From Candidatus Schekmanbacteria bacterium (GTDB lineage Bacteria > Schekmanbacteria > GWA2-38-11 > J061): a stretch of 64,000 nucleotides of DNA. The stretch spans positions 62,001-126,000 of the forward strand of contig JACRJM010000002.1 in the NCBI GenBank assembly GCA_016219965.1. Reading direction: 5' to 3'. The notes beneath the pieces were generated by a model. It was not told the origin of the DNA and ran no database searches. It was given only the letters and a program-made list of their open reading frames with translations. Positions 4,868 through 52,112 of the stretch are shown in pieces; position 1 is the stretch's first letter; each line of letters begins with the position of its first letter. The position numbers and the translations under genes are program-made.

Positions 4868-5596
4868 TTAGCTTTTCCTGAAACGGTAGCTTAGGAATAC
4901 CATTGCAAGACCTGCCGGAAATAGAAGGCCAGAGCTTGGTTCAGGCACCGGATTGACACATATCTGCTGGCCGTTGTTAAGTTTGCCCGGATTGCCGAAA
5001 CCTGTTCCCCAGGGGCTTATGGCTGATGCTGCAAATGATGATAAAAGGGTTTCGTCAGATGACGTTATAAAGAGTTTGTAGATTGAGTTGTTAATGGCAA
5101 TATCTGGGAAAATAAAATCCTGAAGCAATATGTCATTTCCGTTTCCTGCAATTCCGTCAATGCTGTCAATGAGCGAGATTTCCTCGCCGGTGTTAAGCAG
5201 GCTCATTGCCGAGGAAGTGACTCCTGCATAAATTGACGAATCCGTATAGAGGGAAGAAAAACTCACAGCGCCTGCCGGCTCGCTTATAACAGCAAATGTG
5301 CCGTCGGGTATTGAATGTATGTCAGCATATCCGGAAAGCTGTATGATGGATTTGTAGCTTGCCCCGCCATTGTCGCTAAACATGAGTCTTGAAAGGTTAA
5401 GGATATTTCCGGTGCCATTGTATATCTCGATCCATTCTCCGCCGGTATCAGAAACCGGATGGTCATACATTAGTTCGCTTATCTCAATACCGTCGCTGAT
5501 ATTAATTGGCGAAGCTACGGAGACAGAGGTGAGAGTGATGAGGCATACAAAAGATAAAACAGCACAGCAGATAAAACCAAAGTTACATTTTTTCAT
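4868..5596 (-). CDS. secreted lamin-tail-domain protein with PEP-CTERM sorting signal
   Basis: The ATG at 5596 is chosen because AAGGAGG lies 5 bp upstream; a longer frame to 5656 has no such site. The 242-residue product has a signal peptide (residues about 1-28, ending VSVASP). A lamin-tail domain follows with ISELMYD and GGEWIEIYNGTG at about 35-60. The C-terminal tripartite signal is VPEPSS, then a hydrophobic segment (GLLFPAGLAMVFLSY), then RFRKS. PEP-CTERM tails are recognised by exosortase, which moves the protein to the outer surface, usually with exopolysaccharide. No exosortase is in the window. The gene stands alone on the minus strand. Confidence 0.85.
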   Translation of the reverse strand: MKKCNFGFICCAVLSFVCLITLTSVSVASPINISDGIEISELMYDHPVSDTGGEWIEIYNGTGNILNLSRLMFSDNGGASYKSIIQLSGYADIHSIPDGTFAVISEPAGAVSFSSLYTDSSIYAGVTSSAMSLLNTGEEISLIDSIDGIAGNGNDILLQDFIFPDIAINNSIYKLFITSSDETLLSSFAASAISPWGTGFGNPGKLNNGQQICVNPVPEPSSGLLFPAGLAMVFLSYRFRKS

Positions 5597-35285: not shown

Positions 35286-35291
35286 GGAAGA

Positions 35292-35734: not shown

Positions 35735-36011
35735 ATGATTTATAATTGTAAATTGTTGTAGTCTGGTCTTCAGCTATCAAATATTTATTTCAAACCGTTT
35801 TTATTTTCTTAAATTTTTCCATTTCTGGCAACAAGCCGTGAAGTTTACCCCCATCTCTTTTTAAATTGTCATTATTAATACATGGTGTCGGATTTCAGGA
35901 CATTTTATTTCTTTTTGAAAAAACAGAAAACCATCTGGGAATCTGTTATTGCAAAATATTATCTAAATATTTCAATTAGTAGCAGTTATCTTCAATAAAT
36001 TATCAAATAAG
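35735..36011. other. A+T-rich divergent intergenic region
   Basis: No gene is seen between the XRE promoter and the sigma-54 site of the next gene. The start-extended frame of the XRE gene reaches 35780 but is not supported by a ribosome site. Confidence 0.5.
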
Positions 36012-36027
36012 TGGCATGTGTCTTGCT
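36012..36027 (+). promoter_or_regulatory. sigma-54 promoter of a PEP-CTERM gene
   Basis: TGGCAT (36012-36017), five bases, and TTGCT (36023-36027) match the -24/-12 consensus at all key positions (GG and GC 10 bp apart). The site is 37 bp before the ATG at 36065. In other bacteria PEP-CTERM genes are controlled by the sigma-54-dependent PrsK/PrsR system. Confidence 0.75.
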
Positions 36028-36064
36028 ATATTTTTCTTTGAAATGTGAAAACGGGGGGTATGTC

Positions 36065-36619
36065 ATGAAGAAGTCTATTTCCTTTTCAATAATAGCATGT
36101 CTTTTTTTATGTTTATGCGCTCTCACAGAAGTGAACGCAATACAGGTTCCGGTTACACTTACAATAGATGAAATATTAACTGAAAGTAACCCTTATGAGG
36201 TAAACGTTGGAGATACATTTGACTGGCTTGTAAAATATGATGAAACTCAAATAGTCACATACGGTACAGATGAATGGCTGTTTCCCTATCTGGACCCTAC
36301 GTTTGACATAAATGGCGCAGTTGGAACATTCTCATTTGATATTAATGACGTCTTTGCCATGACTTTAATGTATCCTCTGCATTTCACCGGCGGGTCTCTT
36401 GACGGATTTTATATGCTCTATATTCTTGATCTGCCATCATACGTTAATTATGCAGGCGGCATGAATCAGTATCTATTGATGAATGCTGATGGTAACGAGC
36501 TTTATAGAGGATCATTTGTTTTTGGAGCAGTATCACCTGTCCCTGAACCATCCACCTTTATTCTTCTCCTTGCAGGCTTGGCAGGTATTGCCGGCTTTAA
36601 GATTATGAGAAGAAGATAG
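36065..36619 (+). CDS. secreted PEP-CTERM protein
   Basis: ATG at 36065 follows GGGGGT by 5 bp; an ATG at 36011 lies inside the sigma-54 promoter and is rejected. The 184-residue product has a signal peptide (MKKSISFSIIACLFLCLCA..., cleaved after VNA at about 25). A beta-rich middle with no recognised domain follows (VPVTLTIDEILTESNPYEVN). The C-terminal tail is VPEPSTFILLLAGLAGIAGF then KIMRRR. The tail predicts exosortase processing at the outer surface. It lies just downstream of the end of the exopolysaccharide operon, on the opposite strand. Confidence 0.87.
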   Translation: MKKSISFSIIACLFLCLCALTEVNAIQVPVTLTIDEILTESNPYEVNVGDTFDWLVKYDETQIVTYGTDEWLFPYLDPTFDINGAVGTFSFDINDVFAMTLMYPLHFTGGSLDGFYMLYILDLPSYVNYAGGMNQYLLMNADGNELYRGSFVFGAVSPVPEPSTFILLLAGLAGIAGFKIMRRR

Positions 36620-36733
36620 TTAAGCGGTATAGCAAAGCCAATATCGCGCTCAACATAACCTGTCACAATATTACATGTCGTGTTGCTTTTTGCCCCTATG
36701 TGAAGAAATAATTTGAACACACTATTTAGTGTT

Positions 36734-37681
36734 TCAATTCCTCTCCCTCAGGAAAACATATATCTCCGTAAAAAGAATATTCCTTCTGATTATGGTGAGA
36801 AGACTGCTTGCGAACGCACGTGGTGTTTTGAATGTGAGAAGGTGCGGGAGCTGAATTGTTAACGGCACTTTTACTTCTTCCATCCCTGCTGCTTCAGCCA
36901 TCTTGAGGACTGAGTTCCGTGTGAAACAGTTGATGTGCTCGAGAGGGCTTACTGGGTTGAGAGAGTTCTTAGTTCCCTTTGGTGCCTGCCAGTTTTCAAT
37001 GCGGAGTCTTCTTTTTATGTCAGAACCATCAGGAACGCTGATTTTTATGAGGCCAGCCTCTCTCAGACCTTTTTTTAGATATTTCAAAGTCTCAAGTGGA
37101 TTGGAGATATGCTCAAAGACCTGCTCTGTGGTTATAAAATCAAAATTGCCGCCGGGAATTTCATCCCATGAAATTGTTTTAACTCCCTGCGATTTTGCAT
37201 GAGAAATTCTTTCTTCTGAGAGTTCGGTGCCAAAACAATCACAGCCGGCTTTATTTGCCTCAATGCACCAGAGCCCCCATCCCATACCAAAATCAAGCAT
37301 CTTAATGTCAGATGGGTTTTCTCCCATAAAAGAGATAATCATCTCTATTTCACGCGCATATTTATAGGCAAAACTCTCTCCCTTTTCTTCCACCTCGGTT
37401 TTTCGCGCAAGCTCAGGGGATATCCATTCACAATAAATTTTTTTAGAAAGAAGATCATTGGGGACTTCTTTCTGATAGATGTTCCCGCAGAGAGTGCACT
37501 CCTCAAGTTGAAAAAGTGCATCTTCAAGATATTCGAATTCTATTTTCCCCTGAGGCGTGTAGAAAGATTGAAGGAATTCTTTTATTGGAGAGCTTAGATA
37601 GTTTTTAGAATATATTGTTTTCGAACTGCTGTTCCCGCATGCAGGGCAGGATTGCCTAAGAGAGAAGTATTTCCCGCTCAT
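36734..37681 (-). CDS. SAM-dependent methyltransferase with N-terminal zinc ribbon
   Basis: The 315-residue protein opens with a CxxC pair (CPACGNSS at 14-21) and a second (CTLCGN at about 57-62), which form a zinc ribbon. The methyltransferase domain follows, with IKMLDFGMGWGLWCIEANKA at about 122-141 and DFITTEQVFEHISNPLETLK near 180. Such proteins (Methyltransf_23 with a zinc ribbon) modify sugars of surface polysaccharides. It is the last gene of the 13-gene exopolysaccharide operon, 2 bp after the WecA-like gene. Confidence 0.8.
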   Translation of the reverse strand: MSGKYFSLRQSCPACGNSSSKTIYSKNYLSSPIKEFLQSFYTPQGKIEFEYLEDALFQLEECTLCGNIYQKEVPNDLLSKKIYCEWISPELARKTEVEEKGESFAYKYAREIEMIISFMGENPSDIKMLDFGMGWGLWCIEANKAGCDCFGTELSEERISHAKSQGVKTISWDEIPGGNFDFITTEQVFEHISNPLETLKYLKKGLREAGLIKISVPDGSDIKRRLRIENWQAPKGTKNSLNPVSPLEHINCFTRNSVLKMAEAAGMEEVKVPLTIQLPHLLTFKTPRAFASSLLTIIRRNILFTEIYVFLRERN

Positions 37682-37683
37682 CT

Positions 37684-38874
37684 TTAATCGTTATTTTCCG
37701 GATGTCTGTTTTTTTGTGACTCTCCATTCAGTCTTATTTTATTCCCGATCCTTTCAAGGATTGTCACGATTGTAAGAAAAACCACTGACTGCACTACAAG
37801 GATAATCGAGTCTACTGTGTCAGCATTTCGAAGTGCAAGGGCGGAACAGCCCAACCCTATATTTAGAAGAAAAATGAAATGAACGGTTTTTCTTTTTCCG
37901 TGAAGGAGAGCATCGAGTCTGTGATGGAGATGGTCGCGCCCGGTGTATTCAACCCATTCTGTGAAATTATGTATTTTTCCGGTCATGTACCTGTCTATGG
38001 TTATATAGAACATGTCATATATGAGGACGCTGAATATGAGTACAGGGGCAAGGGCTGAGACCACGATACTGTTTTCAGACCAGTCCCCGTTTATTGCCAT
38101 GCAGGCAAGGACAAAGCCCAAGAAATTCGAGCCGCTGTCTCCAAGAAAGATTGAAGCATCGCCCTTTAATTTCAGATTGTATGGAAGAAAGCCAAGGCAT
38201 CCTCCTACAATTGCTATGGCGGTCCAGCCGAGAAAGGGCTGATGGTTCTGATAGGCAAGGATGCCTATAAATGTTGAGATTATCACAGAGATTCCCGCAG
38301 CAAGCCCGTCCATCCCATCAAAGAAATTCATCGCATTTGTAAGCCCAAGTATCCAGAGGAACGTAAACGGAATATTGAGATACCAGAGCGGAGTATGGGA
38401 AGGAAAGATGGTGAGCACAGTTCCTGTGTATATAACGATTGCAGTAGCAGCTATCTGAACTAAAAGTCTGTATGCAGCCCTGAGATGGAATTTAACGTCC
38501 AGCAGTCCAATAATAATTATGAGAGAAACGGCTATTAATATCCCTACAAGCTCTTTTGAAAAAATATAATTCACAGCAAGTGAAACAATGAATGATACAA
38601 ATATGGAAAGCCCTCCCAAAAGCGGAGTTCCTTTCATGTGGAGCTTGCGCGCGTGGTCTGGCAGATCAAGGAACATCTCTTTTATAGCAACCAACTGTGC
38701 CAGAGGGACAAGGAGATAAGTCAGCAGTGATGAAAAAAGGAGAACATAAACCCACCTGTGCCCAACGCTGTTAAACCAGAATTTTGTTGCCGGCAATACA
38801 AGGATCAGGAAGGCGATTAAAGCCGGGATATATAGTGGATATGTTATATCTATCTGGCGGCTCTTCTTATCCAA
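37684..38874 (-). CDS. WecA/MraY-family polyprenyl-phosphate sugar-1-P transferase
   Basis: This 396-residue enzyme has about 11 membrane helices. It has the family motifs: LDLPDHARKLHMKGTPLLGG at about 54-73, NAMNFFDGMDGLAAG at about 190-204, FLGDSGSNFLGF at about 250-261 and the histidine box DHLHHRLDALLHG near 315. The pattern fits the initiation step that transfers GlcNAc-1-P or a related sugar phosphate to undecaprenyl phosphate. It thus starts the repeat unit of the operon's polysaccharide. It overlaps the DegT gene by 8 bp. Confidence 0.9.
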   Translation of the reverse strand: MDKKSRQIDITYPLYIPALIAFLILVLPATKFWFNSVGHRWVYVLLFSSLLTYLLVPLAQLVAIKEMFLDLPDHARKLHMKGTPLLGGLSIFVSFIVSLAVNYIFSKELVGILIAVSLIIIIGLLDVKFHLRAAYRLLVQIAATAIVIYTGTVLTIFPSHTPLWYLNIPFTFLWILGLTNAMNFFDGMDGLAAGISVIISTFIGILAYQNHQPFLGWTAIAIVGGCLGFLPYNLKLKGDASIFLGDSGSNFLGFVLACMAINGDWSENSIVVSALAPVLIFSVLIYDMFYITIDRYMTGKIHNFTEWVEYTGRDHLHHRLDALLHGKRKTVHFIFLLNIGLGCSALALRNADTVDSIILVVQSVVFLTIVTILERIGNKIRLNGESQKNRHPENND

Positions 38875-39934
38875 TAATTATCTCCTTTGCCGAGCTTGCG
38901 ACCTTATTCATTTCTATCTTTTTAAGAGCCGGATAGATGGGAATTGATAAAGCCTCGCGGTAAAGCTTTTCTGCTCCGAGGTAATTTTTATTGTCCAGTC
39001 CGAGGTATCTATGTAAAGGAAGATAAAGCGGAAGCTCAGTGTTTACACCCAATCTCTTAAACCGTGCAACAGTATTGATAGCGGTCATCTTGTTAAGCCT
39101 TATCACGTATCTGAAGAATACATGTCTTGTCCCGGATTTTTCTGCCGGATGGAATAAGTTATCAGATTTAATTTTTTGTCTGTAATAGTCTGCGATTGCT
39201 CTTCTGCTTTTTATAAAAGACTCTATTTTTAGAAGTTGGCATCTCCCTATTGCTGCGGCAATGTCAGTCATCTTATAATTAAAGCGTACTTTGTAGTCGT
39301 CCCTGTGATCATAGGAGCGAAGGTCATTTACTTTATCTATTAATTTTCTGTCATTGGAGAGGACCATTCCCCCTTCTGCGGTTGTCATCATCTTTGTTGC
39401 ATAAAAAGAGAAGATTGATATTTGCCCAATTCCCCCTGCCTTGCGGTTGCTCTGCTCAGCTCCTATAGCCTGTGCGCAGTCTTCAATCACAGGGACTCCC
39501 AATGATGCGATGCCCTTTATATCAGCAGGCGAGCCGAACATGTGCGGCACGATTATCGCCTTTGTCCTTCTTGTCAGTTTCTTTTTTACATCCTGAAGCA
39601 TGATATTCCCATCATCGGGAGAAACATCTGCTATGACCGGCGTTGCCCCTGTGTAGTTAACTGCATTTAAAAGTGCAGTGCATACAAATGTCGGGATTAT
39701 CACCTCGTCTCCTGCTTTGATGTTGAGAGCAAGCAGGGCGAGATGCAATGCCGAAGTCCCGCTGTTTACAGCAGATGCATATTTTACGCTTATGTATTTT
39801 TTGAATTCGCTTTCGAATTTTTGAACTTCTTCCCCTGAAGATAACATTCCGCTTTTTATTACACGGATTGCGGCAGATATCTCATCCTTCCCTAAACAGG
39901 GCTTTGAATGAGGAATGGGATTTTTAATTGTCAT
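38867..39934 (-). CDS. DegT/DnrJ/EryC1/StrS sugar aminotransferase
   Basis: This 355-residue PLP enzyme transfers an amino group to a nucleotide-linked keto sugar. The family pattern runs NSGTSALHLALLAL at 57-70, IEDCAQAIGAE at about 150-160, and the PLP lysine K181 in FSFYATKMMTTAEGG. The C terminus carries the ELPLYLPLHRYLG motif. It points to an amino sugar (for example a 4-amino-deoxy sugar) in the polysaccharide. Next to it is a PIG-L deacetylase, 2 bp upstream, which acts on related N-acetyl groups. Confidence 0.9.
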   Translation of the reverse strand: MTIKNPIPHSKPCLGKDEISAAIRVIKSGMLSSGEEVQKFESEFKKYISVKYASAVNSGTSALHLALLALNIKAGDEVIIPTFVCTALLNAVNYTGATPVIADVSPDDGNIMLQDVKKKLTRRTKAIIVPHMFGSPADIKGIASLGVPVIEDCAQAIGAEQSNRKAGGIGQISIFSFYATKMMTTAEGGMVLSNDRKLIDKVNDLRSYDHRDDYKVRFNYKMTDIAAAIGRCQLLKIESFIKSRRAIADYYRQKIKSDNLFHPAEKSGTRHVFFRYVIRLNKMTAINTVARFKRLGVNTELPLYLPLHRYLGLDNKNYLGAEKLYREALSIPIYPALKKIEMNKVASSAKEIIIG

Positions 39935-39936
39935 CG

Positions 39937-40557
39937 CTACTCGGTTATGTTTATGAACATCCTTACAGGTACAAAAGCTTCAGCATTTTTTACTCGTCCC
40001 TGAACTCCCCTGAAGTTTGCAGATGAAAGGACTATGTCAACTATTGAGAGCCCTGATATGTTTGTCCTTTCAACCTGCGATGCGTGGGCTTTTACAAGTG
40101 CTACCTTCTCTTCCAGCACTTCATTTATATCTATGAATATCGTTGGCTGGAAGCCGTGTGTTGTCGGACCTTCGTAGAAAAGGACATTCTTGGTATAGCG
40201 GGCGGCAGATGTCACGGCACTGCTTAAATGCCTGTGGTCCTGATGAGTGTCATCAGGGTAATGTGTAAAAATAAAAACAGGATTTATGGTTTTAATTATT
40301 TTTTCTATTGTCTGAATAGTTTCAAGGTTTGCATGAATCTCTGTGTCCTTTGATTTTCCCCAGAACAGTTTTTTTGCTTTAACCAGTTTTGCGGCTTTTT
40401 CCTGCTCGGTTTTCCTCAGTTTTTCCGTACCTCCCTGTTCTCCTTCGGTCATTACAAGAAGGTATATCTCATGTCCTTCTTTCGAGTATTTTGTAAGTGT
40501 GCCGCCGCATCCGACTTCAATGTCATCCGGATGCGACCCGATAGCAAGGATTCTCAT
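39937..40557 (-). CDS. PIG-L-family de-N-acetylase
   Basis: The 206-residue zinc enzyme shows IGSHPDDIEVGCGGTL at 6-21, with the metal-binding H9, D11 and D12, and FTHYPDDTHQDHRHLSSAV at about 98-116 with further ligands. PIG-L/LmbE proteins remove N-acetyl groups from GlcNAc-type sugars or thiol conjugates. In this operon it probably trims a sugar of the exopolysaccharide. Its ATG lies 4 bp inside the end of the WbqC gene. Confidence 0.9.
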   Translation of the reverse strand: MRILAIGSHPDDIEVGCGGTLTKYSKEGHEIYLLVMTEGEQGGTEKLRKTEQEKAAKLVKAKKLFWGKSKDTEIHANLETIQTIEKIIKTINPVFIFTHYPDDTHQDHRHLSSAVTSAARYTKNVLFYEGPTTHGFQPTIFIDINEVLEEKVALVKAHASQVERTNISGLSIVDIVLSSANFRGVQGRVKNAEAFVPVRMFINITE

Positions 40558-41243
40558 TTATTTCCTCCTGTCAGAATTGAAAGGCTTTCGCTGCCGCAGT
40601 TGAAGAGAAGGTCAACGGCTGAAAGATGGGAAAGAAAATCATCAAACTTCTGCTTGTAAACAGGGTGCCTGTATTCCTGAAAAATGACTTTTATTCCTGC
40701 GTCGCTGTATTTATTCAGGTCCATATAATTTTTCCCGCCTTCACCGGCAAGGTATGTGTCTGCTTCATACATCCTGCATAAGCTTATAAGCCTTTCATCC
40801 GGGTCTTCGGGAAACTCTCCAATTTTTGATGCTATCATAGTTCTTTTGAATATGCCAAGACAGCTCATCAGCTCTTCTATTAAAGCGATATTGAGAGCGC
40901 TTAAATATCCCCACCGGCTTTTTATTATTTTCTGTATGGAGGCAAAGTATTTTTTAAAAAATGATGTGTTTGAATAGTTAAGTTCCAAAGATGCGATATG
41001 TTTTTTCTGCCAATGAGAATTTTCATCAATTGTTACTTCCATAATCTTCTGGGGGAACCTGTAATGCACCGGCACTGTGAGCCATGCAGGACCGGTGTCT
41101 GTCTTTATGCGGTTGCGGTTTTGCCATTCATTTTTTTTATACTGGACATTGTCAAGAAAAACGAAGATGTCGCTTCTGTAAATCTTTTCAAAATAACCAA
41201 GCCAGGGGAGGTACTGAGGCTGGTGTGCTGCAAGTATCATCAA
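40554..41243 (-). CDS. WbqC-family protein
   Basis: The 229-residue protein begins ILAAHQPQYLPWLGYFEKIY at 3-22, followed by FVFLDNVQYKKNEWQNRNRI, the signature of the WbqC-like family found in polysaccharide and natural-product clusters. Its reaction is not firmly established; amidation or acyl transfer onto amino sugars has been suggested. It overlaps the PHP and PIG-L genes by 4 bp each, so it is translationally coupled within the operon. Confidence 0.88.
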   Translation of the reverse strand: MMILAAHQPQYLPWLGYFEKIYRSDIFVFLDNVQYKKNEWQNRNRIKTDTGPAWLTVPVHYRFPQKIMEVTIDENSHWQKKHIASLELNYSNTSFFKKYFASIQKIIKSRWGYLSALNIALIEELMSCLGIFKRTMIASKIGEFPEDPDERLISLCRMYEADTYLAGEGGKNYMDLNKYSDAGIKVIFQEYRHPVYKQKFDDFLSHLSAVDLLFNCGSESLSILTGGNK

Positions 41244-42814
41244 TTACCTCCGGTTGACCGGGCATAATCAAAAAAAATCGGATTAGACACAATATGGTCA
41301 CCTTTCCCAGTTTTAATAATGAGCCTGTAATATCCCTTTTCTTTTTTGTCGGGTTCGTCTGTAAATTTCTCTGAATATGGCGCCTCTCCTTTGATTTCCC
41401 TGATGCGTCTGCCGTTTCTAATCAGCTCAAGGTTAAACGGGAAAGTGTGCCCGCTTTTTTCGCCTATTTTTATTGATAGCTCGGGATTGCCGGTGAGTTT
41501 AACAAGCTCTCCCATCCCGTACCGGGTTTCGCTCTCCGTATTCCCGATAGTGAAATCTTGAAGGATAACCTTATTCTCCTTTCCATTTCTCCTTGCATAA
41601 CAATGTCCTTTTCTTATGGCATCAAGGACTGCGTTTTTGTTCAGAGTGTCCGCGGTATCAATGAGTAATACGGTTTCTACCTCGTCTATCCTTTCATCGC
41701 CATTGGCATGGTAGTCAATTCCCCCCACCCCCCAGACCGGATTTTTTCTTTCACCATTGCAATACTGAAGCAGTATTGTGTCCCATTCTTTTCCTGATTC
41801 TATCATTTTTGATTTGTCGCGGTAAAGCGCTTCAAATCCTGTGTAATCCTGAGATCTTACAAGATCTTCTGCATGCGACGGAGTGTAAATGTTAATGGAG
41901 TCAATTTTCCTTTCCTCATAATTTGACTCCGGATGCGCCCAGATTGATAGAGCGCCGCTTTTCTCTGCATAATCTATAAGCTCCTGATATGGAAAGAGCT
42001 CCGCATCACTGTCATACTGGGAAAACATGGAGCTTTTGAAAGGATGATAATTTATAGCAAAGAGGATAGAGATAATCATAAAGGCTAATGCAATTTTTCT
42101 GAGAGTTCCCTCTCCTTTTAAATATAGTACGAACGAAAGTATGAATGCAGCAATGAATGGGAGAAAGCCGGGAAGAAGTTCTTTTATGTAGGATGTTGAG
42201 AAACCGTTGTGTATGACCGGCAGTGCTGTATATTTTTCCAGTGTGTCAAGTCCAATGATGGTTATATGTTTATGCCAGTTATTTGAGACAAGGGTATCGT
42301 TAAAAAAACTTCCGGTCCAGAAATAGTGAGCTGTTGATTCAACCCCAGGAATGATAATCATGTCATCGTACTTTGAATTTACTCTTTTTATCTCAGAGAG
42401 ATATTTTGCAGGTCCAATGCTGTTTACGCTTTTTTGCTCTACGGTTTTTTTAAGTATGTTTCTAAAGGGGGGGATACCGTATTCCATTCTTATAACATCA
42501 TGGTCGGTAAGGAAGAGAATCTTGTCTCCGGTGTTTCTTGCTTTTGCAACTACTTCTTCAACTGTTCCATTGCCTGATGAATATACTGTGTGCAGATGAA
42601 GAAGGCTGTCAGCCTGAAACTTCTCTGCTGTTCCTACAGGTGGAAATACGAAAAAAAACAGGATAATAAGAACAACACTGATTAAAGGCTTGGCTGTTCC
42701 CTCGGCAGGCACCTGCTGTTCAGTGCCCCCTAGTGAAATATAGAGGGACTGCCAAGCCTTTAATAATCTATTGTAATTTTTTTTCTTTGAGCACTTCTTC
42801 ATATAACGATTCAA
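41240..42814 (-). CDS. membrane-bound PHP-domain phosphoesterase
   Basis: This 524-residue protein has an N-terminal membrane segment (about 44-62, PLISVVLIILFFFVFPPVG). A PHP metal-dependent domain follows (LLHLHTVYSSGNG at about 71-83; FLTDHD at about 100-105; IPGVESTAHYF). Two or three helices occur mid-protein (FLPFIAAFILSFVLYL; IALAFMIISILFAIN). PHP proteins cleave phosphoesters; this one could process a lipid-linked intermediate outside the membrane. The first ~46 codons span a hairpin repeat, and no ordinary start codon lies after it and before the PHP motif. The annotated start is TTG at 42814 (ATG at 42802), overlapping the GT4 gene by 47 bp. Confidence 0.8.
   Translation of the reverse strand: MNRYMKKCSKKKNYNRLLKAWQSLYISLGGTEQQVPAEGTAKPLISVVLIILFFFVFPPVGTAEKFQADSLLHLHTVYSSGNGTVEEVVAKARNTGDKILFLTDHDVIRMEYGIPPFRNILKKTVEQKSVNSIGPAKYLSEIKRVNSKYDDMIIIPGVESTAHYFWTGSFFNDTLVSNNWHKHITIIGLDTLEKYTALPVIHNGFSTSYIKELLPGFLPFIAAFILSFVLYLKGEGTLRKIALAFMIISILFAINYHPFKSSMFSQYDSDAELFPYQELIDYAEKSGALSIWAHPESNYEERKIDSINIYTPSHAEDLVRSQDYTGFEALYRDKSKMIESGKEWDTILLQYCNGERKNPVWGVGGIDYHANGDERIDEVETVLLIDTADTLNKNAVLDAIRKGHCYARRNGKENKVILQDFTIGNTESETRYGMGELVKLTGNPELSIKIGEKSGHTFPFNLELIRNGRRIREIKGEAPYSEKFTDEPDKKEKGYYRLIIKTGKGDHIVSNPIFFDYARSTGGN
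42681..42764. repeat. dispersed hairpin repeat, copy 2, inside a coding N terminus
   Basis: ATTAAAGGCTTGGCTGTTCC...CTC (42681-42703) pairs with 42743-42764 apart from one substitution and one indel. The inner sequence GGCAGGCACCTG repeats that of copy 1 (14391-14457). It lies directly after the stop of the GT4 gene and is read through as part of the PHP protein. Confidence 0.75.
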
Positions 42815-43958
42815 CCTTTCTTACCATGGAATGTGTGTCGTATAGCGCTGCTCTTTCTCTTCCCCTTTCTCCCATAGATGAGCGGAGATTTTTATCAAGA
42901 TAAAGCCTTTCTATCCTGTCAGCTATTGCTTCTGCGTTTCCGGGAGGTACTATAAATCCGGTTTCACCCTCAACTACTATTTCACTTATTCCTCCAACAT
43001 CGGTGCCAACCACGGGAAGGCCTGCTGCCATGGCTTCCACTATGGCTTTTCCCATTCCTTCATTAAGGGAAGAAAGAACAAAGATGTCTGCACCATTAAG
43101 AAAATTTCCTATATCTTCACGCCATCCTGCAAATTTAAATCTTTCAGCAGCTCCGGCATTTTTTATTATTTGTTCCAGATTTTCTCTCAGTTCCCCTTCT
43201 CCTGCAATAGCGAAGTAGATATCATCATATTTTTTAGAAAGTATAATACCTGCTTTTATGAAATATTCATAACCTTTAACTCTGCTTAACCTTCCCATAC
43301 TTGCCGCAACTATTGCGCCAGCAGGCATGGAAAGTGTTTCTCTCAATGATATATGGGATTTTGGGCATTGGCTGGTTTTATCAGCATCAGTTCTCTGTAT
43401 TAATCCAATATCCACACCGCTGTGGATCGGTATGAATTTATCAGGCTTGGCGACGCCGAAGCGGATATGTTCTTTTTTCCCCCGTTCTGTAAGTGTGATG
43501 ATCCTGTCTGTGATAAGAGCTGATATCTTTTCAGCCCATACGAACAACTTTGATACAAGAGGTACGTAATATCCATAAAAAACATGGCCGTGCGGTGTGT
43601 GAACTATAACTGGTACCCCAGCCAGCCAGCCAGCCCATCTCCCCAGTATCCCTGCCTTTGAGCTGTGAGTGTGAAGAATCTGGTAGTTCCCCTTTTTTAT
43701 GAATGAGTAAATCTGATAAAAAGCTTTTAAATCATGGAGAGGACTTATCTTTCTTACCAGATCCGGGATACATGAAAATTCCGATGCTGACTCCTTTGCC
43801 TTTTCAAAGTATTTAACGTCAGGAGAGAGCGTAAGCCCATAGAGAAGTGATGGGGTGTATTTACCCCTGTCAAGGTTCATGACCGTGATTAGCGTGTTCT
43901 CTGCTGAGCCTCCCCTGTCAAGCCTTGTTATGACATGAAGGACTTTTACCGGTTTCAT
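42768..43958 (-). CDS. GT4-family glycosyltransferase
   Basis: This 396-residue GT-B enzyme has VLHVITRLDRGGSAENTLIT at 5-24 and ILHTHSSKAGILGRWAGWLA at about 93-112 in the acceptor half. GRLSRVKGYEYFIKAGIILS and IFVLSSLNEGMGKAIVEAMA (EX7E-type donor motif) are in the C-terminal half, which ends with PPGNAEAIADRIERL. It elongates the lipid-linked repeat unit. Its 3' end overlaps the PHP start and abuts hairpin copy 2. The ATG overlaps the next gene's stop by 4 bp. Confidence 0.9.
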   Translation of the reverse strand: MKPVKVLHVITRLDRGGSAENTLITVMNLDRGKYTPSLLYGLTLSPDVKYFEKAKESASEFSCIPDLVRKISPLHDLKAFYQIYSFIKKGNYQILHTHSSKAGILGRWAGWLAGVPVIVHTPHGHVFYGYYVPLVSKLFVWAEKISALITDRIITLTERGKKEHIRFGVAKPDKFIPIHSGVDIGLIQRTDADKTSQCPKSHISLRETLSMPAGAIVAASMGRLSRVKGYEYFIKAGIILSKKYDDIYFAIAGEGELRENLEQIIKNAGAAERFKFAGWREDIGNFLNGADIFVLSSLNEGMGKAIVEAMAAGLPVVGTDVGGISEIVVEGETGFIVPPGNAEAIADRIERLYLDKNLRSSMGERGRERAALYDTHSMVRKVESLYEEVLKEKKLQ

Positions 43959-45181
43959 AAAAGCTCTCTATAAAGGTCTTCTAGCTCTGCGGCAGTGTTA
44001 TCCCAGCTATATTTTTCTTCCACCAGTTTTCTTCCCCGCTTTGCTGTTTCATCATAAACTGCTTTTTCATTTTTAAATATCGAGATCCATTTTACTATTC
44101 CCTTTGCCATATCAATACTTCCGGCTGATTCTAAAATAAGGTCATGGCTTAACTGTCCGAGGATCTCAGGTGTAGCGCCAACTGGAGTTCCGATGACGGG
44201 GGTGCCGCATGCGAGTGATTCAACGGTTACAAGACCGAAGCCTTCTTCAGATTTTGTGGGGAGGATGAAGAAATCAGATCCCCTGTAAAAGTCGGCAAGC
44301 GCTTCTTCTTTTACAAACCCTGTAAATCTGACATTTGAGGAGATCCCTTCCCCGATTGCTATTTTTTCAAGCTTTTCCCTTAATGGTCCTTCTCCGCCGA
44401 TTACAAGGAGGGTATCATTGTGGGTTTTCAATATCTCCTTCATGGAGTAAAGGAGGTTTTCAAGCCCCATCCGCGGTTCCATATTTCTCAGGGTTGATAT
44501 TATTACTTTGTTTTCAGGACAGGAGAATTTCTTTCTAATCTCTTTTTTATCTCCGGCGGGATTAAACCTTAAAGTGTCAACTCCTCCCGGCACTATTTTT
44601 ATTTTAGTTTCTGAGATTTTGCAGAAATCTCTTATAAGCTTTGATGTATAGGAGCTTAAGGTCCTGACCCTGTCACATCGCAAAAAGTTGAATATCTCAA
44701 TAAACTTTATAAAAGGAATTGTGACCGCTCTGTCTGATAATGAGAGGGGTTTATTGGATATGGTTTGGCGTGTCGCATATTCCATATGTCCCAAAGAAAG
44801 GCATGTATAAATTTTTGGTATTTTTTTTGCTGCTTGAAAAATGTTAAGCGCAAATGCAGAAAAAGGCTGATGGAAGTTTATTATGTCCACATCTTTTTTG
44901 ATTTTGCTAAAGATATCACGCGGTCCTGAAATGGTTCTGTAAAGGAAATCTAATGGAGAAGCAGGGTCTGCATAAAAGGTCCGGATTGCAATATCTTTCA
45001 GCTTGAATTTTTCTCCGGATTCTTTTTCTTTTCTTCTCGCAATAAGGGATATCTGGTTTCCTCTTCTTGCAAGGGCCTGTAGCTCTTCGAAGAGGACCCG
45101 TTCAGCGCCGCTAAAATGAAAGTCCGCGGAATTGTTTTCTAAAGACGGAATGTTTACATCTGAAACTATAAGGATATGCAT
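43955..45181 (-). CDS. GT4-family glycosyltransferase
   Basis: The 408-residue GT-B protein starts MHILIVSDVNIPS and has HFSGAERVLFEELQALARRG at about 22-41. The donor half includes NMEPRMGLENLLYSMKEIL, VIGGEGPLREKLEKI, and FILPTKSEEGFGLVTVESLA (EX7E motif) at about 307-326. The C-terminal helix YSWDNTAAELEDLYRELL closes the fold. It adds a sugar in the exopolysaccharide repeat. It follows the ligase/polymerase gene by 19 bp. Confidence 0.9.
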   Translation of the reverse strand: MHILIVSDVNIPSLENNSADFHFSGAERVLFEELQALARRGNQISLIARRKEKESGEKFKLKDIAIRTFYADPASPLDFLYRTISGPRDIFSKIKKDVDIINFHQPFSAFALNIFQAAKKIPKIYTCLSLGHMEYATRQTISNKPLSLSDRAVTIPFIKFIEIFNFLRCDRVRTLSSYTSKLIRDFCKISETKIKIVPGGVDTLRFNPAGDKKEIRKKFSCPENKVIISTLRNMEPRMGLENLLYSMKEILKTHNDTLLVIGGEGPLREKLEKIAIGEGISSNVRFTGFVKEEALADFYRGSDFFILPTKSEEGFGLVTVESLACGTPVIGTPVGATPEILGQLSHDLILESAGSIDMAKGIVKWISIFKNEKAVYDETAKRGRKLVEEKYSWDNTAAELEDLYRELL

Positions 45182-45200
45182 TTATTATATTTCCAAGTAC

Positions 45201-46583
45201 TCACATTATCCTGGTGTCTTCAGGAAGTTTGTTTTCTGTCTTTATGTGCCCGAGCGATATTATAAGACCTGTCACAAGCCAGAATGGCTCCATTATTCTG
45301 ATTATTATGAAGGTGTTCGCCCCGATGCTGTGGACTGTGAGTGCAGTCAATCCCGCGATATAGCCCAGCGTAAGTCCTTTATAGCTGTTTGAAGGAAGAT
45401 TCCTGTATATCCTTATGCTTTCCCTGAAAAGATTGAAAAGAAGATTAATGAAAGCTGCGAGACCTATAAGACCTGTTTCGAGCAATGCCCTCACATACTG
45501 GGCATCCCTGAATTTATAGCCTGTAATCCCAAAGCCAAGAAGAGGATGTTTGAGAAAATCGTCAGTGCTTTCTATCCATGTTTTAAGTCTTTCAGATGTC
45601 GAAGTATCAAGTTTAATGTTGCCTATCTTGTATTGTCCATGCTCCGGTTTCTGGTGAAAAGTGTATTCCAGCCTTTCTGTGACAGGTGTTGGAAGAAAGT
45701 AAGGGGTAACAATAATAACAAGAAGAACTGCTATGAGTACTATTACTCTTTTTCTTATGGAAATTATGAAAACTATCGCAGCCGGGATAAATGCAAGATA
45801 AGAAGTTCTCGAGAGAGTAAACAGAAATGGGAATACTATTATCAGTAAAAGACCGGCAGCAAGCACTCTCTCTCTCCTGTATCTTGAAAATAGAAAAACT
45901 CCTGCAGACAGAAAAAACATGATTAAAAGATAACCGCCAAGGGTATTGGGTTCACCGGTTTCACCTTCAAAGGGGGCACTGACTCTCTTCCCTCCCGGTA
46001 TCTGGTATATTCCGTAAATGCATATAACGGCGCATGTGATGAAAACAGCGTGTATGATATGGTTTATATGTTTTGGTTCGTCTATGTTGTTGACCACTAT
46101 GAAATAGAGAACAAAATATTCGAAATATTTCAGAACATAGAATACTCCGGTTAGAAACTTCACATCACCTGCAAAGACTCCAAAAAGAGTAGAAATGAAG
46201 CAGACGCCGATATAAATAAAAATAGGTTTATTCAAAGGTGTCCTTGTGATGAGCCCGAGTTCTTTGTGGATTGCAGTCTTGGTAAACCAGATGAGCCCCA
46301 GGAGAATAAGCAATATGTCTTCAGCCCTGATGGTTATGCTTCTGGCTGATTCGGTCTGCGGGCCAAGGGTTCCAAGTGTTATTTCAGGAGACAGTAACAT
46401 TGAAAATATAACGAGTATAAGTGCGACTTCGTTGCTGATAAAAGAAACAACAGCTATCAGGATTATCATGGCTATCAAAAAGGATTTTACCGGCACAAGG
46501 ACAGATATGCCTATGGCTGCGATGAGCGATATGGCTATTGTAAATGCTAATGTTATATTAGTGGAACTTATTGCCCGGTTCAT
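45201..46583 (-). CDS. O-antigen ligase/polymerase (Wzy/WaaL-like)
   Basis: This 460-residue protein has about 12 membrane helices. A large periplasmic loop near 340-385 carries the usual Wzy_C-type context (HPLLGFGITGYKFRDAQYVR then ALLETGLIGLAAFINLLF). An Arg-bearing helix (TLSRTSYLAFIPAAIVFII) lies near 258-276. Enzymes of this class polymerise undecaprenyl-linked repeats or ligate chains in the periplasm. Given the Wzc and Wza genes just upstream, polymerase is the better guess. Confidence 0.82.
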   Translation of the reverse strand: MNRAISSTNITLAFTIAISLIAAIGISVLVPVKSFLIAMIILIAVVSFISNEVALILVIFSMLLSPEITLGTLGPQTESARSITIRAEDILLILLGLIWFTKTAIHKELGLITRTPLNKPIFIYIGVCFISTLFGVFAGDVKFLTGVFYVLKYFEYFVLYFIVVNNIDEPKHINHIIHAVFITCAVICIYGIYQIPGGKRVSAPFEGETGEPNTLGGYLLIMFFLSAGVFLFSRYRRERVLAAGLLLIIVFPFLFTLSRTSYLAFIPAAIVFIISIRKRVIVLIAVLLVIIVTPYFLPTPVTERLEYTFHQKPEHGQYKIGNIKLDTSTSERLKTWIESTDDFLKHPLLGFGITGYKFRDAQYVRALLETGLIGLAAFINLLFNLFRESIRIYRNLPSNSYKGLTLGYIAGLTALTVHSIGANTFIIIRIMEPFWLVTGLIISLGHIKTENKLPEDTRIM

Positions 46584-46623
46584 ATTTTGAGCAAAGGATT
46601 TAATCTGTTAAACAGCATTTCTT

Positions 46624-49041
46624 TTATTTTTGCTGTTGTTGGAGGTATTCGTAAACCTTCCCCTTCGTCCGCACTGATGCACTGCTTATACCGCATCCTT
46701 TAAACTGCCAGAACCACCCGAATAGAAGGGAGAATATGATGAGAGCGAGAATAACGGACTTCCATAAATTTTTCCCGCTTAACTGAACTTTAAGTTTTGT
46801 CAGTCCATCTTTTGAGAAAAGATTTTCAACCTTGCGGGAAAGGTTTTCAAGTCTTGTTTGAAATCCCTTTCCATCTTTTTTATCTTTGTCCTCGGAATAC
46901 GTCCTGTAACCGAATTTAAAATACTCAGGGTTGATTTCCGGACGAAGCCCAAGAAGTACTATGCCTATGACGTTTGCCTTTACATTGTCCAGAATTGATT
47001 TTGCTCTCTTAAGCCCTGATCTTGCTATTTTCCCGGCACGGTAAACAAGGAGAACTGAATCTGCCTTTGACCCTAGGATTACTGCGTCAGTTACGGGAAG
47101 GACCGGAGGAACGTCGATTATTATAAGATCATAGTATTCTTTGACCTCCTTCAATAATTCTTCCAGCTTTTTGGAATTTAAAAACTCCGACGGATTCGGC
47201 GGAAGGCTTCCGCAGGTTATTATAGACAGGTTGTCCAGTCCCGGTGTCTTGAGAAGCTGTTCGAATTCAAGACTGCCGAGCATCATATCAGTCACTGTTT
47301 TTACCACGCTCTTCCATGGGCTGTTTCCTATTATTATCTCAGTAAGTCCCGGTTCCCTTTCGAGCCCGAACATATGATGAAGTCTGGGCTTTCTTAAATC
47401 ACCTTCTATGAGTAGTATCTTTTTTCCGAGCTGTGCCAGAGTTATCGAGAGATTGATAGCTACAGATGTTTTCCCCTCGCCCAGCGAGGCGCTTGTGACT
47501 ACGATATTCTTATACTCTTTTTCGAGCAGGAGGAACTGTATGTTTGTCCTCATTGCCCGGTAGCTTTCAGCCAATATTGAATTTGGTACAAAATGGGATA
47601 TGAGTTTTGAATATAAGTCCGCCGCTTCCTCGTCCACTGTCCCGCGTTTTACTCCGGCTTCAACTATCTCATCGATTATTGCCTCGTTTTTGACATCCGG
47701 TATAAGACCCATTACAGGGACATTGACATAATGCTCAAGGTCTTCAATGGTTCCTATTGATGTATCAAGAGTTTCAATAACAAGTGCAGCTACAAATCCA
47801 AGTGCAATCCCTATAAGTATTCCGACAAAGGTTTTTTGAAGTATATTAGACGGATTAATCTCTTCCGGTTCTTCATAGGCAGGCTTGACTATTGAGACCT
47901 CATCTACCTTTTCAGCCTCTTTGATCAACGCTTCCTGATGTTTGGTATTGAGCAGTGTGTAAAGTTCGGTGTTTACATCTACCTCTCTTTTTGCCCTCTG
48001 CACCTGCAGGATATCATCCGGTTTCCTCTGAAGAGACTCTGAAAGGACTTCCGTTCCGCTGAGAAGGACTTTTTTCTTTTCCTGCAGGGTGTATATTTTC
48101 TGCTTTATCTGTTTTTTCATCTCCATTATGATGCCGGTAAGCTGGGATTTTACCTCCATTACCGCAGGATAATCAGGATTGAACTGCTCTTTAAGGGATT
48201 TATATTTCAGGATTGTGGTAAGTAATTCTCTGTTAAGTTCATAGAGATGAGAATAGTAATCCGGCGTGTACACCCTTCCCAGTTCATCTTCTCCGCCGCC
48301 GCTCTTTTCAAGTATGGAAAGCTGGTTCCTGGAATCAGCAAGATCAGCATCAATCTTCTGTATCTCTTCATTGAAAAGGTATTTTTCTTTTACTATGTTA
48401 TCAAATGAAGTTGCGCCTTCATTTAAGATGCCGGTTTGCTGTTGAAGCCCTTTTAAGTTTTCCTCGGAGTCATGCAGTTTCTTCTCAACTATCTCTAGCT
48501 GGGATTCTATGAATTTCCTGGTCTCAATTACCTGAGAGTTCCTTTCCTTGCTGCTTTCTTCCCTGTAAACCTGCACAATAGTATTGGCTAAAAGTGTTGC
48601 CTCGGCAGGATCTATAGACTTCACAGATACATTGATGATGTTCGTGTCTTCACTCTGTTTTGCCTCTACGTTTTTCTGAAGTTCTGAAATGATGTTAACA
48701 AGTTTTGGGTTATTCCTTATCTGCTCGGAGTTTAAATTTTCAGGAATGCGGTTAAGCCTTTGCATTGTTTTTTCCATTATGGGATAACTCGTGATGACCA
48801 CTGACTGGGTTGCAATGTTGTCCCATGTTGACCATGAAACTACTTCGGTTAAAAGTCCGGTGAGGCTTGTTGACCTTTCGACTTTAACGCTTGCAACCGC
48901 CTTGTAGACCGGCGCCGGTTTCTGGATAAGGCTTATAAGAAATGTGAATATGGTTACAATGATTGCAATCGATGCGATTACGAATCTTCTTTTTCTTATG
49001 ACACGCCAGTAATCTCTAAGATCAAGTTCGTACTGAGGCAT
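46624..49041 (-). CDS. Wzc-type chain-length determinant fused to a BY-kinase
   Basis: In 805 residues, an N-terminal Wzz domain (YWRVIRKRRFVIASIAIIVT at 12-31, coiled coils at about 170-390) is followed by a second membrane helix (about 405-425). A bacterial tyrosine-kinase domain comes next: Walker A SLGEGKTSVAINLS at 519-532 with K524, Walker A' LIEGDLRKPRLHHMF near 545, Walker B LIIIDVPPVLPVTDAV near 645. An unusual third membrane helix (WKSVILALIIFSLLFGWFW) lies near the C terminus, after the kinase, instead of the usual Tyr-rich tail. It controls chain length and export of the polysaccharide. Confidence 0.9.
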   Translation of the reverse strand: MPQYELDLRDYWRVIRKRRFVIASIAIIVTIFTFLISLIQKPAPVYKAVASVKVERSTSLTGLLTEVVSWSTWDNIATQSVVITSYPIMEKTMQRLNRIPENLNSEQIRNNPKLVNIISELQKNVEAKQSEDTNIINVSVKSIDPAEATLLANTIVQVYREESSKERNSQVIETRKFIESQLEIVEKKLHDSEENLKGLQQQTGILNEGATSFDNIVKEKYLFNEEIQKIDADLADSRNQLSILEKSGGGEDELGRVYTPDYYSHLYELNRELLTTILKYKSLKEQFNPDYPAVMEVKSQLTGIIMEMKKQIKQKIYTLQEKKKVLLSGTEVLSESLQRKPDDILQVQRAKREVDVNTELYTLLNTKHQEALIKEAEKVDEVSIVKPAYEEPEEINPSNILQKTFVGILIGIALGFVAALVIETLDTSIGTIEDLEHYVNVPVMGLIPDVKNEAIIDEIVEAGVKRGTVDEEAADLYSKLISHFVPNSILAESYRAMRTNIQFLLLEKEYKNIVVTSASLGEGKTSVAINLSITLAQLGKKILLIEGDLRKPRLHHMFGLEREPGLTEIIIGNSPWKSVVKTVTDMMLGSLEFEQLLKTPGLDNLSIITCGSLPPNPSEFLNSKKLEELLKEVKEYYDLIIIDVPPVLPVTDAVILGSKADSVLLVYRAGKIARSGLKRAKSILDNVKANVIGIVLLGLRPEINPEYFKFGYRTYSEDKDKKDGKGFQTRLENLSRKVENLFSKDGLTKLKVQLSGKNLWKSVILALIIFSLLFGWFWQFKGCGISSASVRTKGKVYEYLQQQQK

Positions 49042-49053
49042 TAAGTTTCCCTG

Positions 49054-50127
49054 TTATTTGATGTTCTGGAAGAGTTTGTAGATATAGAAAGGCTGCAACC
49101 CTTCATTGATAGTCCTGAGTACGGGTGCAATCTTTTCAAGGATTTTATCAACTCTTCCAATTGCTGTGTCAGGAACATAAACAATATCGCCTGGCTCTAA
49201 TTCCACATTCTTGATCTCTAAGTTTTCTTCTACGTTCCTGAGATTTGACAGGTTTGCTGTTATTACCTCCGGGTTGCTAACTGCGCCTCTCAGAATCTTT
49301 ATATTGTCCTTGACTGCAAAGATAGTGAAGTCTCCTGAGGATGCTATTGCAGATATAAGATTAATCCTGTCATTAGTCATTTTTACTGCTCCGGGAGTTT
49401 TTACTTCTCCCAGAACATAGACTATCTTTTCATCCTTTTTGGGTATGAATATGAAGTCGTTCGTTGTTATCTCAATATTCATCCCCGTTGCTCCATTGTT
49501 TAAGAGCTTTTCAAAATCAACGGGGAGTATCTTGTTGTCCCTTATCACATAGGCTTTTTTAAGGTCAGATGTCTGTGTGATACCTCCTGCTATTGATATA
49601 GCCTGAAGCAGAGAAACTGGGTGTTTTATTTCATAAGTTCCGGAATTTTTCACTTCACCGAGAATATAGAAGTATTTGCTTCCATAATTCTGGATGCTTA
49701 CTATTACCTGCGGATTCTTTACATATTTTGCATAAGCTCTTGTTACAACTTCCCTTGCCTCTCCGAGTGTAAGGCCTGCAACTTTTATTTCTCCAACAAC
49801 GGGAAGAAATATGACTCCATTGTCTTCAACAGGCGTACCTCCTTTGTCAGCAAGAACTGCCGGGGTTCCCAGTTCAGGATGCTCCCACAGGGATATGAAC
49901 ATTCTGTCTCCTGCTCCGATCCGGTAATTTGTGTCTTTTACAAGCAACTCTGAGAGGTCATTGTCCGACTCAGGAGCAGCATTTTGGATTGAAGAAGATT
50001 CAGCAGTGTTTCCGGTAGCTTTCGCATTAACGGCAATATCCGGATTTGAAGTTCCGCACCCCGCCATGAATACAACTATTGCTGTGGCAAAATACATTAA
50101 GAATTTCATTTTCCGTAAAATAAACAT
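49054..50127 (-). CDS. polysaccharide export outer-membrane lipoprotein (Wza-like, SLBB)
   Basis: The 357-residue protein has a lipobox at VFMAGC (Cys24), so it is a lipoprotein. A poly-export domain follows (YRIGAGDRMFISLWEHPELG at about 67-86, GVIFLPVVGEIKVAGLTLGE). Two or more SLBB domains follow (FYILGEVKNSGTYEIKHPVS; IVYVLGEVKTPGAVKMTNDR), ending with LEPGDIVYVPD. It would form the outer-membrane export channel. Its ATG overlaps the upstream HD-GYP stop by one base (TGATG), with GAGGATC as ribosome site. Confidence 0.92.
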   Translation of the reverse strand: MFILRKMKFLMYFATAIVVFMAGCGTSNPDIAVNAKATGNTAESSSIQNAAPESDNDLSELLVKDTNYRIGAGDRMFISLWEHPELGTPAVLADKGGTPVEDNGVIFLPVVGEIKVAGLTLGEAREVVTRAYAKYVKNPQVIVSIQNYGSKYFYILGEVKNSGTYEIKHPVSLLQAISIAGGITQTSDLKKAYVIRDNKILPVDFEKLLNNGATGMNIEITTNDFIFIPKKDEKIVYVLGEVKTPGAVKMTNDRINLISAIASSGDFTIFAVKDNIKILRGAVSNPEVITANLSNLRNVEENLEIKNVELEPGDIVYVPDTAIGRVDKILEKIAPVLRTINEGLQPFYIYKLFQNIK

Positions 50128-51305
50128 CAGTGAAGATCCTCATAAAAAACTGGGCCTGTTATATTAAGCAGTGTATCCCTGTTAAGGTCAACTATCTCTT
50201 TTTTGGAAAGCTTCTCGCCGGAAGAATCGTATAGGATCTCAATTTTCGGTTTCAATGGACTTAACGGATTGATCTCAATTACCCTTCCTACCTTATTTGA
50301 ATTTAAAAGTACGTAACTGCCGACCGGGAAAGCTGAAAGTTCGCTTACCAGGGCTTTAAGTATCTCTCTCGGGAATGCTTTTTTAAAAGATGTGATTATT
50401 ATCTTAACCGCATCAAAAGGTGTCATCCTCCCTCTCTGGGGTCTTGGATGGGTAAGCGCTTCATATATATCACAGATGCCTATAATCTTTGCAAGCATAT
50501 CAATCTTATTTCCTTGAAGCCCGAAAGGATATCCGCTTCCATCTTCTTTCTCATGTTCTCCGCACACAAGTGAAGAAAGCCATGCATATTTATCACCGAG
50601 GGCATTCTGAATGATATCGCGGCTGATAAGAGGATGTTTTTTAATCTCTGTTTTTTCTTCGTTAGTCAAGTCGCCTGTTTTTGTGATGATAGACTCCGGT
50701 ATTTTTAAAAACCCTATGTCATGAAGAAGCGCTCCCATAATAAGCTTCTTTAGCCTGCCCTCATCGATTCCAAGGGACATCCCTATCTTAAGACAGAACA
50801 CGGCAACATCAACCTGATGCTGAATAAGGTTAAATTTTGCAGACATGAAAAAAAGTGCATTTACGAAAAGCGAGTTGTCTTCCCTGATACCCCTGATAAA
50901 ATCATCAGCAATGGATGCAATTCCATCAATATCTATTTTCCCGCTGGTCATATAGAGATTTAACGATGAACCAAGAACATCCATTGCCCTGTTATATAGA
51001 TCATCGTTGCTCGCAGGTTCCTTTTTTATTTTTTCAAGGTCGGACATTTCTATGGAGTGGGTATTAAGGTGAACTTCATCGATGTTAGACTGGTCGGGAT
51101 GGCCAGCAGGCTCCGTTGATTTTAGTTTTTTTATCACTAAAGGGTTTTCTTTTATCTTCGGAGGTGAGGCGGGGACTCTGTCGCATGATAAAAAAGAAGT
51201 ATATTTACTCTCTATATCAGTCAAAGAGAGTTCTTTTTCTTCTTTTTTATCAATTTCTTTTTTGTTTGTTTTATCTGTGCTTATAAGGTCGCTTATTCTA
51301 ACCAT
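50127..51305 (-). CDS. HD-GYP-domain c-di-GMP phosphodiesterase
   Basis: The 392-residue protein has a long, poorly ordered charged N terminus (about 1-110). An HD-GYP domain at about 150-325 follows, with GALLHDIGFLKIPESI (H195-D196) and HEKEDGSGYPFGL (residues 251-263, with the GYP triplet intact). A C-terminal segment (VGSYVLLNSNKVGRVIEINP) is a small beta domain often seen after HD-GYP. Such enzymes degrade cyclic di-GMP. Its place between the ATPase and Wza genes ties polysaccharide export to c-di-GMP signalling. Confidence 0.9.
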   Translation of the reverse strand: MVRISDLISTDKTNKKEIDKKEEKELSLTDIESKYTSFLSCDRVPASPPKIKENPLVIKKLKSTEPAGHPDQSNIDEVHLNTHSIEMSDLEKIKKEPASNDDLYNRAMDVLGSSLNLYMTSGKIDIDGIASIADDFIRGIREDNSLFVNALFFMSAKFNLIQHQVDVAVFCLKIGMSLGIDEGRLKKLIMGALLHDIGFLKIPESIITKTGDLTNEEKTEIKKHPLISRDIIQNALGDKYAWLSSLVCGEHEKEDGSGYPFGLQGNKIDMLAKIIGICDIYEALTHPRPQRGRMTPFDAVKIIITSFKKAFPREILKALVSELSAFPVGSYVLLNSNKVGRVIEINPLSPLKPKIEILYDSSGEKLSKKEIVDLNRDTLLNITGPVFYEDLH

Positions 51306-51320
51306 TTGACCTTCCCGGTT

Positions 51321-52112
51321 CTACAAATTAAGAATCTCGTTAATAATTGAGGAGCCAATTGTTTCCACCTTTTTTTCATAGCCCACCAGAAGAGCAAGAT
51401 CGCAGATATTGTTTATGAGCCGTGGCACGCCGCAGCTTCTTTCATAGATAATGTCAATTGCCTCTTCTGTAAAAATGCCTCGTTGGGCGCCGCTCTTTTT
51501 CAGCCTGTATGAAACATATGCTATTGCCTCTTCCTCTGTCAGAGGTTTAAGCTCGCATTTTATTGAAATTCTCTGATCAAGCTGCCAAATATTTTTTATC
51601 TTCTCCTTAAGCTCCGGCTGTCCCAGAAGAATAATGGTAAGGAGAAATCTTTCATTTAGCTGGAAGTTTAATAATAACCTTATTTCTTCGAATATGACAG
51701 AATCTTTTACTACATGTGCTTCATCAATGAATACAATCGTATCCTTTCCCATTTTGAAATTTTCGAGGAGATAATCATTGAGTGTGTGCAATATATCAAG
51801 TTTATTATCCGGTACATCATTTATCCCGAGCTGGTATAAAATCTCCCTGTGGAGCTCAACTCCTTCAAGCAAAGGATTGTTCACCATTCCTATTTCATAT
51901 TTTCCCCTGTCCAGAGCCTGTATTATTGTTCTTGCAAGGAGTGTTTTCCCGCAGCCAGGTTCGCCGGTAAGCATCGCAGCTCCCTTATGGCTTTCTATTG
52001 CATAAAGAATCCGCTTGGCAGCTTCTTCATGGCCGGGCAATGGGAAATAATAATAAGGGTCAGGCACATTATCAAAGGGTGTATTCTTAAGATGGAAGTA
52101 TTGTTCGTACAA
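51321..52112 (-). CDS. XrtA-associated-type AAA ATPase (ExeA-like)
   Basis: TTG at 52112 is the only start before the conserved opening MYEQYFHLKNTPFDNVPDP; AGAGGA lies 8 bp upstream. Of 263 residues, Walker A GEPGCGKT is at 50-57 and Walker B TIVFIDEAH at about 125-133. A sensor segment LLGQPELKEKI and a C-terminal NNICDLALLVGY follow. This is the ExeA/GspA-like ATPase form that sits beside exosortase-linked exopolysaccharide operons. It is the first gene of the 13-gene operon here, although no exosortase follows in the window. Confidence 0.85.
   Translation of the reverse strand: MYEQYFHLKNTPFDNVPDPYYYFPLPGHEEAAKRILYAIESHKGAAMLTGEPGCGKTLLARTIIQALDRGKYEIGMVNNPLLEGVELHREILYQLGINDVPDNKLDILHTLNDYLLENFKMGKDTIVFIDEAHVVKDSVIFEEIRLLLNFQLNERFLLTIILLGQPELKEKIKNIWQLDQRISIKCELKPLTEEEAIAYVSYRLKKSGAQRGIFTEEAIDIIYERSCGVPRLINNICDLALLVGYEKKVETIGSSIINEILNL

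Follow-up and report, generated by a model that had tools for sequence, protein, structure and literature searches.

The window analysed here, a stretch of 64,000 nucleotides from Candidatus Schekmanbacteria bacterium, contains two genes for PEP-CTERM proteins and an exopolysaccharide operon (Table 1). The first of these genes encodes a protein of 184 residues with a C-terminal PEP motif, a hydrophobic stretch and a basic tail, as expected of a PEP-CTERM protein, and is recognized by both PF07589 (31 bits, cut-off 20.7) and TIGR02595 (24.2, cut-off 16). Its ATG at 36065 lies 37 bp beyond the end of TGGCATGTGTCTTGCT (36012-36027, plus strand), which agrees with the sigma-54 consensus at 10 of 11 positions and has the correct GG/GC spacing. 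The preliminary description, which had placed TGGCAT-N5-TTGCT 37 bp before a PEP-CTERM gene, is confirmed in this respect; of the span that it gave, 36012-36619, the last position is indeed the end of the gene, but the first is that of the promoter, the gene starting at 36065. A plus-strand sigma-70-like site was sought in the stretch upstream of this gene and none was found. Directly upstream of the locus, an IS30-like transposase lies beside an ImmA/IrrE-like peptidase and Xre-type regulator pair (33611-35780), which suggests a mobile insertion adjoining the PEP-CTERM locus.

Downstream, the exopolysaccharide operon converges on the PEP-CTERM gene. No terminator-like hairpin was found between the two (36620-36733), and read-through from the PEP-CTERM gene could be antisense to the end of the operon. 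The operon includes a gene for an HD-domain protein resembling cyclic-di-GMP phosphodiesterases (50127-51305). Elsewhere in the window, an AbiEii-type toxin gene occupies 2747-4291, with a small upstream gene in the position of the antitoxin.

Table 1. Features of the window discussed in the text (positions counted from the first nucleotide of the 64,000)
Feature	Positions	Strand	Basis or remark
Second PEP-CTERM gene of the window (lamin-tail domain, ATG start), outside the predicted regulon	4868..5596	-	Without box and sigma-54 site
Enhancer box (UAS) TGTCGGATTTCAGGACA, predicted PrsR-binding site	35886..35902	+	Imperfect palindrome common to the sigma-54/PEP-CTERM genes of the genome; 2 mismatches to TGTCGGAWWTTTGRACA
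Sigma-54 -24/-12 promoter TGGCAT-GTGTC-TTGCT	36012..36027	+	10/11 consensus positions; 126 bp from box start to -24 start
Predicted transcription start	36037..36038	+	Inferred from usual sigma-54 geometry
GGGGGG ribosome-binding-site-like run	36053..36058	+	Sequence
PEP-CTERM protein gene, 184 aa, N-terminal signal-like segment, C-terminal VPEPSTFILLLAGLAGIAGFKIMRRR	36065..36619	+	PF07589, TIGR02595
Exopolysaccharide operon, convergent, outside the predicted regulon (Wzc-like kinase, export protein, glycosyltransferases, O-antigen-ligase-like protein, PEP-CTERM-associated-like ATPase)	36734..52112	-	Upstream without box or sigma-54 site

Comparison of the regions upstream of the PEP-CTERM genes of the genome reveals a shared imperfect palindrome of 17 bp, with a consensus of approximately TGTCGGAwwTyTGrACA. 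The window contains a single such box within two mismatches, at 35886. It was overlooked in the preliminary description and starts 126 bp before the start of the -24 element, leaving a spacer of 109 nt between box and promoter. Taken alone, the sigma-54 motif is close to chance, with 3 matches of at most one mismatch in the window against 1.9 expected in shuffles; it is the pairing with the box that makes the match at 36012-36027 significant. The real window has one such pair at lenient and at strict thresholds alike, whereas simulated sequence gives 0.015 per 64 kb at the lenient thresholds and none in 25.6 Mb at the strict. The second PEP-CTERM gene had been described as having no equivalent site and as possibly being under different control. 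Its lack of a sigma-54 site stands and the box is absent as well, so that different control of the two genes is supported.

The pair recurs throughout the genome, as judged from a background of about 0.69 Mb of genome stretches, genome-wide pattern searches and simulations. Nineteen PEP-CTERM genes are present, one of them cut by a contig end; box and sigma-54 site precede 13 of the 18 with complete upstream DNA, and of the five without a pair of their own, one is second in tandem behind a pair-bearing gene. A search for the -24/-12 motif before other PEP-CTERM genes, proposed at the outset, finds strong enrichment when the box is included (Fisher p ~1e-23 against other genes, a rough value that assumes a total of about 3,300 genes). 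The 0.69 Mb contain 171 sigma-54-like sites. A box lies 40-240 bp upstream of 34 of them, whereas for none of the 171 does the mirrored window downstream contain one; because the stretches were picked around candidate sites, 34/171 is not an unbiased rate and the meaningful control is the mirrored window. One further box promoter (C3:391585) brings the total to at least 35. Genome-wide, there are 53 exact sigma-54 sites against 1 for the reversed pattern, and 39 boxes within two mismatches against 10 for the control. About half of the exact sites have a box score above 17, the remainder scoring 13.4 or less. The exact sites that lack a box lie in front of flagellar-type genes, amtB and other genes, indicating that the box marks a subset of sigma-54 sites. 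Ammonium transporter genes are classical sigma-54 targets, and in the window a perfect consensus, TGGCACATTGTTTGCA (12630-12645), one of the two other matches counted above, lies 35 bp before such a gene (amt, at 12681), with no PrsR-like box.

The predicted regulon extends beyond PEP-CTERM proteins, 22 of its promoters preceding other genes. Since the box matrix was trained on the PEP-CTERM promoters of this genome, its success at these promoters constitutes an out-of-sample test. Most of the 22 targets have signal-peptide-like N-termini, and their domains include DUF7948/SBBP propellers, RCC1 and thrombospondin type 3 repeats, FG-GAP and an SdrD-B domain; a multicopper oxidase, a small cytochrome-like protein, an AraC-type regulator and a PocR-GAF-GGDEF protein are also found. 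The latter (L202:396-2378, promoter at G000 C15:41138) is a possible link of the predicted regulon to cyclic-di-GMP. Large exported repeat proteins share a C-terminal YKLEDID...KK module, over which no Pfam or NCBIfam model was found in the proteins scanned. The module has 24 genomic copies, at G000 C3:43428-58330 and in clusters on C6, C7, C14, C15 and C2 (L249, L250, L199, L204, L257, L211). A box-promoter stands at the head of the single genes or clusters that hold 18 of them, among these the seven consecutive genes at C3:43428-58330; copies outside box-headed clusters are mostly the most diverged. Gene order suggests that the first promoter serves the whole of each cluster.

The distances between the elements are also patterned. 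Across the genome, the proximal box starts 81-127 bp from the -24 element, with groups near 125, 115, 102 and 93 bp, and the spacer to the sigma-54 motif measures approximately 64-110 nt. These distances are helically phased at 10.5 bp (R 0.56, p 0.0002 by jitter), one of three periods tried, 11.0 bp fitting slightly better. Often there is a second box another 62-68 bp upstream, a distance of roughly six helical turns. Looping by an enhancer-binding protein would favor such an arrangement of phased distances and paired boxes.

The proteins that such a switch requires are encoded in the genome. The presence of rpoN and prsR had been set beforehand as a check, and both are found above their cut-offs (439.9 bits against 277.35 for RpoN; 544.6-544.9 against 502.6 for PrsR), as are PrsK (417.7, cut-off 300) and PrsT (562.5, cut-off 312.2). 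The exosortase, PrsK, PrsR and PrsT genes form a cluster within glycosyltransferase genes (C15:66466-75931), where the exosortase (C15:66466-67305) scores 196.4 with TIGR02602 (cut-off 105.55) and falls slightly under the XrtA cut-off (188.7 against 208). No box and sigma-54 site were found before the prsK/prsR operon. A PrsR scan of named genome contigs gave, apart from one weak match, only an Omnitrophota relative (49% identity).

A homologue search with the 184-residue protein in 60 genomes matched only itself; footprinting of orthologous promoters is therefore impossible, and the other PEP-CTERM genes of relatives were used instead. Only three of the genomes compared are nearer than domain level. 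All three (G001, G002 and G003, of the same order or family) contain PrsR and have the pair before several PEP-CTERM genes, as scanned with the matrix built on the present genome and with many G001 upstream regions cut by contig ends. The strict pair is present in 7 of 386 genomes, PrsR over the cut-off in 23 and both in 5 (p 9e-6), with 3/5 outside the own phylum (p 1e-3). The pattern matches in PrsR-bearing genomes of other phyla include some that stand before PEP-CTERM genes, in G139 (2/3), G361, G299 and G311 (1/3), one example of their boxes being TGTTGGAATACTTTACA, and several that are not before a PEP-CTERM gene; in PrsR-negative genomes outside the own phylum, no match precedes one.

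The computations thus show that the two elements are paired, that the pair recurs in the genome and is conserved in other genera and phyla, and that rpoN, prsK, prsR, prsT and an exosortase are all present. In all probability, the site is a genuine switch, in which a sigma-54 promoter and a matching enhancer box turn on a sorted surface protein, and the earlier assignment to sigma-54 gains support from both the box pairing and its recurrence before other PEP-CTERM genes. It is highly probable that this enhancer-dependent promoter belongs to the PEP-CTERM regulatory system, the PrsK/PrsR circuit, as one target of a broad surface-protein regulon. RNA polymerase with RpoN would sit at 36012-36027, the membrane kinase PrsK would phosphorylate the response regulator PrsR, and PrsR, bound to the palindromic box at 35886-35902, would reach the polymerase via DNA looping. 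Transcription would then start near 36037 and give rise to a secreted protein, which the exosortase would sort. The same pair is predicted to drive most PEP-CTERM genes of the genome and further exported repeat proteins, which would make the locus one target among many. In this scheme we infer PrsR as the box-binding protein, the signal and the sorting step.

PrsR was picked as the box binder by co-occurrence, and another NtrC-type regulator could take its place: about 19 proteins of the genome have the sigma-54-contacting central AAA+ part of the PrsR model. That promoter and box are real but that a different NtrC-family activator binds the box and runs the regulon would also fit the many non-PEP-CTERM genes among the targets. 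This is nevertheless unlikely, because the pair tracks PrsR across phyla, also outside the own phylum, it precedes PEP-CTERM genes in PrsR-bearing genomes, and prsR itself sits with the exosortase and prsT. The proposal that PrsK/PrsR is the regulator is supported by the presence of both genes and by the same tracking.

The preliminary description had further predicted co-regulation with the adjacent exopolysaccharide operon. This part is not upheld, since the operon (36734-52112, minus strand) is convergent and a search of its upstream region found neither enhancer box nor sigma-54 site, leaving direct co-regulation without support. Control by the same switch through a degenerate or distant site would be in keeping with the position of the operon next to the PEP-CTERM gene, its PEP-CTERM-system-like components and the second glycosyltransferase cluster that encloses prsK-prsR; adjacency alone is no proof of common control, and against the orientation of the operon and the absence of both elements this appears rather improbable. 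Finally, it is hardly conceivable that TGGCAT-N5-TTGCT is a chance match in AT-rich intergenic DNA and that the gene uses another promoter: although the motif alone is no commoner in the window than in shuffles, box and motif together have a chance of about 0.015 per window or less, the pair recurs before 13 PEP-CTERM genes and is conserved in relatives, and no sigma-70-like site was found on the plus strand in the stretch before the gene.

Whether the PrsK/PrsR box in this phylum governs a general surface-exoprotein regulon reaching beyond PEP-CTERM genes is evenly balanced. Such a regulon would comprise YKLEDID...KK exported repeat proteins, single or up to seven in a row, a GAF-GGDEF signaling protein and an AraC-type regulator, tuned by helically phased and often paired boxes. 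It predicts that surface proteins with and without a PEP-CTERM signal are turned on and off jointly.

The -24/-12 element is of the class seen at sigma-54/NtrC-family enhancer promoters in general, for example at amtB (12630 in the window). In contrast to 36012-36027, the amtB and flagellar-type sites have no PrsR-like box. A closer parallel is pepA of Aquincola tertiaricarbonis, a PEP-CTERM gene whose -24/-12 promoter (TGGCAC, CTGCTT) has been mapped, with an enhancer predicted upstream and transcription that needs rpoN (PMC9850573). There, experiments demonstrate dependence on RpoN1, with dependence on PrsR not among the results (PMC9850573), whereas sigma-54 control of the present gene is predicted.

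The locus belongs to a circuit already known, the PrsK/PrsR system of Haft et al. (2006, PMC1569441). According to that article, PEP-CTERM genes are preceded by a 17-nt motif 1, the predicted activator site, and, downstream of it, a sigma-54 motif 2, the scheme being predicted for 99 of 167 such genes in Proteobacteria (Haft et al., 2006, PMC1569441). The order of the motifs, the occasional repetition of motif 1, the co-occurrence with PrsR, PrsK and PrsT, and the single genes with long upstream regions are alike in both systems. The 3′ ends differ: motif 1 ends in TTTACA, against GGACA in the window and GRACA in the genome, and no shared site with the literal TTTACA end was found in the upstream DNA of the PEP-CTERM genes. 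In other PrsR genomes, however, the boxes that precede PEP-CTERM genes have TTTACA, TTACA or TAACA at this end and thereby link the GRACA box to motif 1 (PMC1569441). The published spacer of 62.8 ± 10.6 bp (range 32-92 nt) is a reported statistic and not a requirement (Haft et al., 2006, PMC1569441); the 109 nt of the window lie outside this range, which the genome-wide values partly overlap. In that account, the system is described in Proteobacteria only and additional sites are few (Haft et al., 2006, PMC1569441), in contrast to the separate, little-sampled phylum, the frequent second boxes 62-68 bp upstream and the majority of non-PEP-CTERM targets found here. What appears to be new is thus the non-proteobacterial phylum, the longer spacer, the pairing and helical phasing of boxes, and the wide scope of the predicted regulon, the latter as judged from limited open-access literature. 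The results give a searchable box consensus and a spacing rule; with independent genomes, they support a 20-year-old computational prediction, that motif 1 is the PrsR box, and extend it beyond Proteobacteria.
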